Of a DNA stretch of 64,000 nt, positions 60,423-64,000 are shown in pieces. The stretch is from Acidobacteriota bacterium (GTDB taxonomy: Bacteria > Acidobacteriota > Vicinamibacteria > Vicinamibacterales > JAFNAJ01): positions 216,222 to 280,221 of the forward strand of contig JAHDVP010000002.1 of NCBI GenBank assembly GCA_023384575.1, in the 5' to 3' direction. Position 1 is the first letter of the stretch. The number at the start of each line of letters is the position of its first letter. Made by a program: the position numbers and the translations under genes. Below the pieces are notes generated by a model. That model ran no database searches, had not been told where the DNA came from, and worked only from the letters and a program-made list of their open reading frames with translations.

Positions 60423-60818
60423 ATGGCGTGGGATCCGCTCCACGAGCTCCTTCACGTGCACAATCGCGGCAGCGACTGGCGTCAGCGAGCCGCCGCCGGC
60501 TGGCTTCCCCCGGTCGACCTGCACGAGACGCCCACCGCGTTCGTGATGGTGGCCGAGTTGCCCGGGTTCGGTCCGGCCGACGTGCAGGTCAACGCGACGG
60601 TCTCGAGCCTCACGCTCTCCGGCCACCGGCCGCCCCCTGAGGCACCGGGCGACCAGTACCTCCGCATGGAACGGGGCCAGGGGCCCTTCTCGCGAACGTT
60701 CGAGTTTCGCGACGCCATCGATCCCGCGGGGATCACGGCCGAGTTCGACCGCGGCCTGCTCACGGTCACCATTCCCAAGTCCCGCACGCTGCAGTCGCGC
60801 CGCATCGACGTGCGGTGA
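60423..60818 (+). CDS. Hsp20/alpha-crystallin small heat-shock protein
   Basis: ATP-independent holdase chaperone. 131 residues. The alpha-crystallin domain runs about 28-118: PPVDLHETPTAFVMVAELPG (strand 2-3 start), SLTLSGHRPPP, PFSRTFEFRDAIDPAGITA, and FDRGLLTVTIPKS (the A/F-x-x-G-x-L motif). The N-terminal arm is short (WDPLHELLHVHNRG), and the C-terminal I-x-I/V motif is IDV at the very end. Heat or stress control is likely by family but no heat-shock element is visible. The DegP-like protease gene follows 113 nt later, giving a proteostasis pair. Confidence 0.92.
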   Translation: MAWDPLHELLHVHNRGSDWRQRAAAGWLPPVDLHETPTAFVMVAELPGFGPADVQVNATVSSLTLSGHRPPPEAPGDQYLRMERGQGPFSRTFEFRDAIDPAGITAEFDRGLLTVTIPKSRTLQSRRIDVR

Positions 60819-60931: not shown

Positions 60932-62146
<1,215 letters not shown>

Positions 62147-62253: not shown

Positions 62254-62265
62254 GAGGAGTCATGG

Positions 62266-63093
62266 ATGCGCCGATGGGTGGGGATGTCGGTGGTCGGAGT
62301 GCTCGCGGGCCTGTTCCTCTCGCTGGCTCCGCTCGTCGCCCAGCAGGCCGCGGTCGTGCCGCGGCCGGGCGCGAGCGCCACCGAGGCCGAGAGCGCGAAG
62401 GTCTGGGTTGGCCGGTACGAGGAATACGAGCAGTACCTGCGCGAGGCGGAGATCGTGCGGACCCGGGACATCGGCCTCGGCGTCACCAAGCCCCAGCGTG
62501 CGTGGTTCGCCGAGGGCGGCCTGGCGGAGAGCGCGGCCTGGAAGGCCATTGTCCCCTCCCGCCGCACGGGCTTCCTCGAGAGCTACAAGTCGGAGATCGC
62601 CGCCTACCGGCTCGACCGCCTGCTCGGCCTCGACATGGTGCCGGTCGCCGTCGAGCGGCGATTCCGCGGCAGCCTGGGCGCGATCATTCTCTGGGTCGGC
62701 CCGACGCGCATGTGGACCGACGCCAAGACGTCGCCGCCTGCCGGCGTCACGTGGGCCCGCGACATCGTCCGCATGAAGATGTTCGACGCCCTGGCGGGCA
62801 ACATCGACCGCAACGCCGGCAACATGCTGATTGACGCTCAGAACCGCCTCATCCTGATCGACCACTCCCGGGCCTTCGTGACGAAGGGCGACCTCCCGGT
62901 GGACATCGAGCACGTCGACCGCGAACTGTGGACGAAGTTCCAGGCGCTCGACGCACCCACCATCCACACCCATCTCGGCGAGTGGCTGTCGAACGACCAG
63001 GTACGCTTCATGCTGAGGCGCCTCGCGCGCCTCGGGAAGGAGATCGACGCGTTGGTGGCACGGCGCGGCGAACACGCGGTGTTCATGCGATGA
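62266..63093 (+). CDS. Secreted protein-kinase-like (FAM20/HipA/PI4K-like) protein
   Basis: 275 residues with a signal peptide (VVGVLAGLFLSLAPLVAQQ, cleavage about 26). The mature chain carries every element of a kinase-like fold: WKAIVPSR with Lys93 (ATP-binding Lys), ESYKSEIAAYRLDRLLGLD with Glu110 (helix-C Glu), GNIDRNAGNMLID with Asp181 (catalytic) and Asn186 (metal), and LILIDHSRAF with Asp199 (the DFG-like metal Asp). The LDRLLGLDMVPVAVER segment is like those in HipA and FAM20 families. The product would act outside the cytoplasm. Its stop overlaps the phosphatase start (ATGA). The ATG follows GAGGAG. Substrate and phosphate donor unknown. Confidence 0.78.
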   Translation: MRRWVGMSVVGVLAGLFLSLAPLVAQQAAVVPRPGASATEAESAKVWVGRYEEYEQYLREAEIVRTRDIGLGVTKPQRAWFAEGGLAESAAWKAIVPSRRTGFLESYKSEIAAYRLDRLLGLDMVPVAVERRFRGSLGAIILWVGPTRMWTDAKTSPPAGVTWARDIVRMKMFDALAGNIDRNAGNMLIDAQNRLILIDHSRAFVTKGDLPVDIEHVDRELWTKFQALDAPTIHTHLGEWLSNDQVRFMLRRLARLGKEIDALVARRGEHAVFMR

Positions 63094-64000
63094 CGTGGCG
63101 CCGGCCTTTCGGGTGGCGCGCCCTCGCCGCGACCGGTGCGGGCCTGGCCTTGGCCACGAGCCTTGCGGCCTTCGCGTCGGCCGGTCAGGGGAGATCGCCG
63201 GAGACGTCCGACCGCCGGGTGGTCGCGGTCGGCGACATTCACGGCGATCTCGAGACGTTCGATGGTCTGCTTCGGAGGGCCGGCCTGATCGACGAGCGAG
63301 GGCGTTGGAGCGGCGGGCGCGCCGTTCTCGTGCAGACGGGCGACGTGACCGATCGCGGTCCACGCGTCCGGGGCGTCTTCGATCGGCTGATGTCGCTCGA
63401 GGGACAGGCGCGGCGAGCCGGAGGACGGGTCGAGGCCCTGCTCGGCAACCACGAGACGATGAACCTCACGGGTGAGTTCAGGGACGTGTCGCCAGACACC
63501 TACGCGGAGTTCGCCGACGACCGGTCGGAGCGCCGGCGCGCCAGCGCCTACGACGCGACCGTCCGCCTCATGACGCGCCAGGCCGCGCGGCTGAAGGACG
63601 GCCCCCCCCCGACACTCCCCGACCGCGACCGGTGGATGGCCACGCATCCGCCGGGCCTCATCGAGTACCTCGACGCGCTCTCCCCCACCGGACGGTACGG
63701 CCGGTGGCTGCGACAGCGCTCCGCGGCCCTGCAGATCGACGGCACGGTCTTCGTGCACGGCGGGCTCGATCCCGACTTCGTCGACGTCGACGTCACGGCC
63801 ATCAACGACCGCATCCGCTCGGAGCTCGCGGAGTTCGACCGCGCGCGCGAGGTCCTCGTCGCGCGCGAGGTGATTCTGCCCAGTTTCACGCTCGACGAGG
63901 TGGTCGCCGCCGTGGGACGCGAGGTCACACAGCTCAACCAGGTGCTGGCGGCGGAGGGCCGGGACGCGCGCCTCGCCGACGGCCCGCTGCTCGAGGCGCT
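63090..64000 (+). CDS. Secreted calcineurin-like metallophosphatase, 3' end cut off
   Basis: 303 residues are visible and the frame is open at the edge. An N-terminal signal (ALAATGAGLALATSLAAFASA) is followed by the PPP-type metal motifs in order: AVGDIHGDLETF (GDxHG), VQTGDVTDRGPRV (GDxxDRG) and LLGNHETMNL (GNHE), then a Ser/Thr-phosphatase-like insert and VFVHGGL, a later metal His. This matches the Shelphs/bis-nucleosyl-tetraphosphatase-like branch of calcineurin phosphatases. Coupled by ATGA to the kinase-like gene, so the pair may add and remove the same extracytoplasmic phosphate (inference). A run of seven C in CCCCCCC near 63602 could be a site of sequencing error. Confidence 0.85.
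   Translation, partial: MTWRRPFGWRALAATGAGLALATSLAAFASAGQGRSPETSDRRVVAVGDIHGDLETFDGLLRRAGLIDERGRWSGGRAVLVQTGDVTDRGPRVRGVFDRLMSLEGQARRAGGRVEALLGNHETMNLTGEFRDVSPDTYAEFADDRSERRRASAYDATVRLMTRQAARLKDGPPPTLPDRDRWMATHPPGLIEYLDALSPTGRYGRWLRQRSAALQIDGTVFVHGGLDPDFVDVDVTAINDRIRSELAEFDRAREVLVAREVILPSFTLDEVVAAVGREVTQLNQVLAAEGRDARLADGPLLEA

Follow-up and report, generated by a model that had tools for sequence, protein, structure and literature searches.

A putatively exported FAM20-like kinase-like protein and its Shewanella-like phosphatase neighbour in Acidobacteriota, and their association with TLC-type nucleotide transporter genes

Bacterial phosphorylation driven by ATP is usually taken to end at the inner membrane, there being no known ATP pool beyond it, and we know of no phosphatase or transporter partner for CotH, the spore-coat kinase of Bacillus. 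In STK-STP operons the kinase domain is cytoplasmic and of another family than the kinase-like protein (K) considered here, and the FAM20 kinases have conserved disulfide cysteines. The points of likeness are that, in the excerpt of PMC12189002 on which we draw, the STK and STP of S. aureus are a co-transcribed kinase and phosphatase and CotH is an atypical bacterial kinase whose sequence resembles that of FAM20C; CotH acts in spore coat integrity, a description that sets it apart from K. Shewanella-like PPP phosphatases are recognised by the motifs GDxHG, GDxxDRG, GNHE, and (I/L/V)D(S/T)G (PMC2887360, in the part used here), and nucleotide transporters of the NTT-HEAT and NTT-HEAT-cNBD types are known from free-living bacteria, where the section of PMC5381601 available to us calls them uncharacterised. 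Here we describe relatives of these families that recur together, namely K, a phosphatase (P), and a transporter of the TLC (NTT) type. What is new is the combination and the tie to TLC; the parts themselves belong to or resemble known families, and no report of the three together was found among the papers listed in searches of an open-access library.

In the window (i.e., the whole 64,000-nucleotide stretch of acidobacterial DNA that was analysed), K is a predicted exported FAM20-like protein of 275 aa encoded on the plus strand at 62266..63093, with GAGGAG, a possible ribosome-binding site, on the same strand at 62254..62259, six bases 5' of its ATG. As the initial annotation had noted, the TGA stop of K and the start of P overlap as ATGA (63090..63093, plus strand), and we infer that the two are translationally coupled. 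P, a putatively exported Shewanella-like PPP metallophosphatase by its motifs and profile matches, occupies 63090..64000 (plus strand), where the window end cuts the gene; in the contig the full protein has 403 aa and ends at C2:280522, equivalent to window position 64301. Between 62155 and 62262, 5' of K, lies an A/T-rich low-complexity stretch (TTGGTTATTGG..., GTAGCCTGTAGCCTGCAGCC), similar pieces of which match 16 other places in the genome. Farther upstream, also as annotated, are a small heat-shock gene (HSP20, 60423-60818; PF00011, 1.6e-16) and the gene for an HtrA/DegP-like protease that ends at 62146 (TIGR02037 at 8e-118, with a score of 394 bits that falls short of the 416-bit cut-off). 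A link to envelope stress had been proposed through these two genes; we set it aside as weak, since an HtrA-cluster ORF occurs in 10 of the 84 loci mapped and adjoins the pair only in the window's locus; in the other nine, 2.2-4.2 kb separates it from the closest K or P. At L118:239-2485, 2.2 kb upstream of a P-K fusion and co-directional with it, is a long ORF that includes a region like an HtrA protease.

Both window proteins begin with a charged and then hydrophobic N-terminus resembling a signal peptide, as judged by a simple n/h/c rule rather than a dedicated predictor; the putative Sec signal of K covers approximately residues 1-24 (62266..62337, plus strand) and that of P, beginning MTWRRPFGW, approximately residues 1-32 (63090..63185, plus strand). 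The expectation that homologues would retain these signals held for most relatives examined. With starts limited to the 60 aa before the domain, and some ORFs cut by contig ends, 57 of the 68 K, 50 of the 59 P, and four of the five fused proteins from class loci passed the rule, as did 38 of 47 K, five of seven P, and all seven fusions from phylum loci. None of 52 cytosolic controls passed, and 20 of 28 exported controls did so when a longer start range was allowed. Tat export of P, which RRPF in the window protein might suggest, was rejected in favour of Sec export because twin arginines are inconsistent, by eye, among the N-termini of its relatives.

No Pfam family claims window K at its cut-off when the protein is searched alone: PI3_PI4_kinase (PF00454) gave 8e-5 and 23 bits against 27.1, HipA_2 (PF20613) 0.014 and 15.1 bits against 27, Fam20C (PF06702) 0.021 and 14.9 bits against a curated 26.8, and FAM198 0.016, also below cut-off; the SCO1664 family reached 30 of 172 bits. 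Profiles of its relatives were more informative against solved structures. The profile built on 55 class relatives placed FAM20A first in the PDB (1.2e-9), followed by FAM20C, FAM20B, and C. elegans FAM20, so that the first six matches were all FAM20 and type II PI4K (5e-4) came after them. A second profile, built from 39 domains at other loci of the phylum, matched FAM20A at 2.3e-13, FAM20C at 1.1e-7, FAM20B at 5.7e-7, and C. elegans FAM20 at 8.8e-7, and its sole PDB matches below 0.08 were six FAM20 sequences. The alignment is colinear through the N-lobe helix, the catalytic region, and a C-terminal helix around an Arg-Arg-Asp stretch of K, and in both K alignments the similarity covers both kinase lobes. 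Because two profiles each put FAM20 first, we conclude that K is, by sequence, a FAM20-like kinase-like protein and a distant relative of the FAM20 secretory kinases; because the curated PF06702 cut-off is missed (the family was matched at E 0.01 by 6 of the 55 and 10 of the 39 relatives), we call it FAM20-like and do not file it as a FAM20 member.

The likeness extends beyond scores, as K too carries an export signal and intact and degenerate relatives co-exist, FAM20 proteins being the best-scoring solved relatives. The differences are that K is bacterial, falls below the Pfam Fam20C cut-off, has no cysteine in the window copy (a count of zero in the translation), retains Asn186, which the class-profile alignment pairs with a Glu of FAM20A, and is tied to phosphatase and TLC genes. 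CotH was absent among the Pfam matches listed for K and its relatives, and none of 25 pattern matches in one scan of viral contigs was confirmed as a K relative. AlphaFold models (mean pLDDT 36 for K with the four K domains of the L022-L025 fusions, and 40 for the L022 fusion) were too poor for fold comparison.

Window K has Lys93, Glu110, Asp181, Asn186, and Asp199 at the positions first assigned to them. It also departs from its relatives, with Leu in place of an Arg253 that is kept in 71 of 72 rows, Ala in place of Asp254, and Asp in place of the usual Gln166. Among the 131 K domains in fetched loci, which are no random sample, Asp181, Asn186, and Asp199 are all kept in 113 and all five residues in 70; a paired change, K93Q/E110N, occurs in 21, and Arg93 in 16. 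The supposition that homologues would keep the catalytic residues thus stands for most, although half of the 16 fused proteins described below have lost Asp181 and/or Asn186 from K. A subfamily with Gln93 and Asn110 and with Asp181, Asn186, and Asp199 intact was seen in L011:1436-2392, L012:5202-6881, and 19 others, including two paralogues in the window's genome; these proteins possibly have an altered nucleotide-binding mode.

The three metal motifs attributed to P are present (GDIHG at residues 48-52, GDVTDRG at 84-90, and GNHE at 119-122, by translation), together with IDTG at 374-377. Eleven positions (D49, H51, D85, D88, R89, N120, H121, E122, H223, H355, and D375) are invariant in 50 aligned P sequences, an alignment that excludes the motif-breaking P of L204. 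The family profile matched the Shewanella phosphatase at 1.6e-55, far ahead of RLPH2 (7.3e-9), ApaH (2.7e-8), and PP2A (2.4e-4). Judged from its residues and profile, P is a Shewanella-like PPP phosphatase, having all the motifs of this family (e.g., psychrophilic phosphatase I, 1v73) and differing from it in its export signal and in being paired with, or fused to, a kinase-like domain.

The association of K with P is not due to chance. Among the matches listed for the 193 genomes of the class, K occurs in 73, P in 80, and both in 57 (Fisher p 4e-16, kinship ignored). When the 71 strongest P rows (E <=1.7e-25) were compared with the 150 K rows among the matches listed, a K lay within 600 bp of 33 of them, in 31 genomes and ten family codes; two of the genomes account for two rows apiece, and in one of them both rows are pieces of a single gene. 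K is upstream on the same strand in 24 of the 33, the genes are convergent in six, K is downstream in two, and one pair is divergent; a gap of only a few bases is frequent in co-directional pairs, and the surroundings vary between families. Outside the class, 31 of 84 P loci were within 5 kb of a K among the matches listed, where random placement predicts 0.32; this count used the 150 TLC and 150 K rows listed and P rows down to 4e-18, with second pieces of one gene dropped or merged. Random-placement expectations, here and below, rest on listed rows and, outside the class, on one genome size of 4.2 Mb. The conserved adjacency foreseen in the initial annotation was therefore only partly borne out, as the other 38 of the 71 strongest P rows had no K among the matches listed within 600 bp (10 of 20 fetched unlinked P loci were on contigs shorter than 12 kb), and P is present in the fetched stretch at only 14 of the 40 K loci drawn from the phylum. 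Because 26 of the 40 lack P there, in many cases K seems to function with no P beside it.

In some genomes the two domains form one protein. P at the N-terminus is fused to K at the C-terminus in 16 ORFs from 13 genomes, with three more seen in L228, L231, and L232, and a quick tree built from 129 K domains needs at least three changes to account for the fused state. Of the 16 fusions, four were found elsewhere than in the phylum's genomes: L022 and L025, both named as Gammaproteobacteria; L023, from Proteobacteria; and L024, which is unclassified and cut, with its K residues present and most of P off the contig. Asp181, Asn186, and Asp199 together with all eleven P positions are found in six (L022, L023, L025, L210, L205 with Asp110, and L197 with Arg93). 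In eight, Asp181 and/or Asn186 is gone from the K half and P is intact. The fusion at L204:3924-5627 has intact K residues and has lost several metal ligands of its P half. In all four of the L022-L025 loci the P-K fusion is followed by an OmpA-family gene whose product has thrombospondin type 3 repeats; as a substrate that product is a lead only, because the four loci are close relatives.

Tandem K genes, one intact and one degenerate, were seen beside P-K and TLC genes in L202, L207, L209, and L211. This arrangement is reminiscent of FAM20C, which has the pseudokinase FAM20A as its partner (PMC7948968, as excerpted), and the analogy suggests that degenerate K domains may regulate rather than catalyse. 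The pair had originally been read as a writer and an eraser of phosphate. Its recurrence, the export signals, the retained residues, and the fusions found elsewhere favour that reading, but it does not apply literally to every member, being weakened where one half of a fusion is degenerate.

Clustering of neighbouring ORFs identified a further recurring partner, a membrane protein of the Pfam TLC ATP/ADP transporter family, often with HEAT and sometimes with cNMP-binding domains. PF03219 scored over its curated cut-off in 18 of 20 candidates (neighbours of K or P and one copy from the window's own genome), the two below it being L211:7945-9999 and L109:8992-11313, and the TLC profile matched a solved ADP,ATP carrier at 1.2e-29 and a chloroplast carrier at 6e-27. 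These proteins resemble the NTT-HEAT(-cNBD) transporters of free-living bacteria in their PF03219 scores and in the HEAT and cNMP-binding domains of several; they differ in lying beside genes for a putatively exported kinase and phosphatase, a context that goes unmentioned in the part of PMC5381601 used here.

Their distribution follows that of K. In the class, TLC is found in 98 of 193 genomes, as compared with 0 of 14 control genomes, and in 63 of the 73 genomes with K versus 35 of the other 120. Over the 396 genomes of the phylum, which both searches are taken to cover, TLC is present in 125, including 78 of 80 with K versus 47 of 316 without it (kinship ignored); the two K genomes without TLC (G221 and G371) both have weak K matches (1.7e-4 and 3.4e-9). 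If codes f20-f94 represent the 75 families outside the class, TLC occurs in 20 of 21 families with K versus 13 of 54 without. Proximity is also in excess of random placement: among the matches listed (150 TLC pieces), 10 of 129 TLC loci in the class were within 5 kb of K or P (0.64 expected), and outside the class the figure was 44 of 105 among the matches listed (0.55 expected), in 29 genomes and 13 family codes. One-strand runs of the order P-K/TLC/K/K are found in L207 and L228, and like runs in L232 (whose contig ends after one K) and L234 (with P and K unfused); in L114 the one-strand order is K/P/TLC. TLC is also present in three of the four L022-L025 assemblies, a statement about the assembly only. 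In the window's genome (G000) TLC is not beside the pair, being a divergent pair on contig C13 with K-P on C2. Divergent TLC/NTT pairs were seen in several genomes, also away from K and P (e.g., L227:3-1959), and genes for FHA-GAF-SpoIIE-type phosphatases were seen near P-K/TLC/K (L207:2146-3861 and L211:5788-7941, with a homologue in L202).

Because K, P, and TLC adjoin one another in different orders, are fused in part, and are present in the same genomes, we join them in a single scheme. We regard it as an evenly balanced proposition that K and P would form an extracytoplasmic phosphorylation module, periplasmic or at the surface, to which TLC would supply nucleotide. The initial annotation had left the phosphate donor outside the cytoplasm as a problem, and TLC/NTT is a candidate answer to it. 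By homology, TLC may carry ATP out of the cytoplasm through the inner membrane in exchange for ADP; K would use that nucleotide to phosphorylate an envelope target, whether protein, glycan, or lipid, and P would take the phosphate off again. K copies that lack catalytic residues may regulate or target a partner, as FAM20A does for FAM20C, and the window's genome would have its three parts split between C2 (K-P) and C13 (the TLC-HEAT gene). More tentatively, and leaning slightly toward doubt, we suggest that these bacteria have a secretory-pathway phosphorylation of their own, in which an NTT antiporter sends ATP out and brings ADP back, FAM20-like kinases and their pseudokinase helpers act on the envelope, and a Shewanella-like phosphatase, sometimes on the same chain, reverses the modification. 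Counted against the module are the Pfam cut-offs that K misses, the Leu253, Ala254, and Asp166 of window K, the degenerate K in 8 of 16 fusions and the one degenerate fused P, the 26 of 40 K loci without P, the separation of TLC from K-P in G000, and the 47 of 125 TLC genomes that lack K.

The module could act on targets other than proteins. K may modify an envelope glycan or lipid from which P trims phosphate, much as animal FAM20B phosphorylates xylose; indeed, the glycan kinase FAM20B and the type II PI4K lipid kinases are among the matches of the K profiles, a weak match to the Kdo kinase PRK01723 was found in 4 of 55 K proteins, and Fam20B is described as the ancestral Fam20 and a xylose kinase (PMC7948968, in the same excerpt). 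However, FAM20B scores below FAM20A and FAM20C, the solved structures nearest to P bear protein-phosphatase names, and the neighbour clusters found in at least four class-locus genomes held no glycan-synthesis set, apart from a nucleotide-sugar-epimerase-like gene (labelled by inspection) in one family's block. We thus regard this version as unlikely, if still worth weighing.

Loss of residues in K raises a second alternative, that K chiefly serves P, as a regulator that binds nucleotide or as an adaptor for substrate, with its own catalysis secondary or lost. This would accommodate the 8 of 16 fusions that keep the P residues and lack Asp181 and/or Asn186 in K, as well as the K93Q/E110N pair in 21 of 131 domains. 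It is nonetheless improbable: 113 of the 131 domains keep Asp181, Asn186, and Asp199 (70 keep all five residues), the L204 fusion is reversed, with intact K residues and a degenerate P, and 26 of 40 phylum K loci have no P in the stretch. Scavenging, in which P and K would act on outside nucleotides or phosphate and TLC would import them as in intracellular parasites, appears very improbable, since P is far nearer the Shewanella protein phosphatase (1.6e-55) than ApaH (2.7e-8) and K is nearest the FAM20 kinases, with no nucleoside kinase among its matches, even though nucleotide import by TLC homologues is known from Chlamydia and Rickettsia (PMC5381601, in part) and Ap4A hydrolases are among the PPP relatives.

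If the reading of K, P, and TLC as an extracytoplasmic phosphorylation module is true, an exported kinase and phosphatase served by a nucleotide transporter would break the rule that phosphorylation ends at the inner membrane. It would give NTT proteins a role in many free-living bacteria and an exported kinase a route to its donor, and the system would be a bacterial counterpart of the animal FAM20 system.
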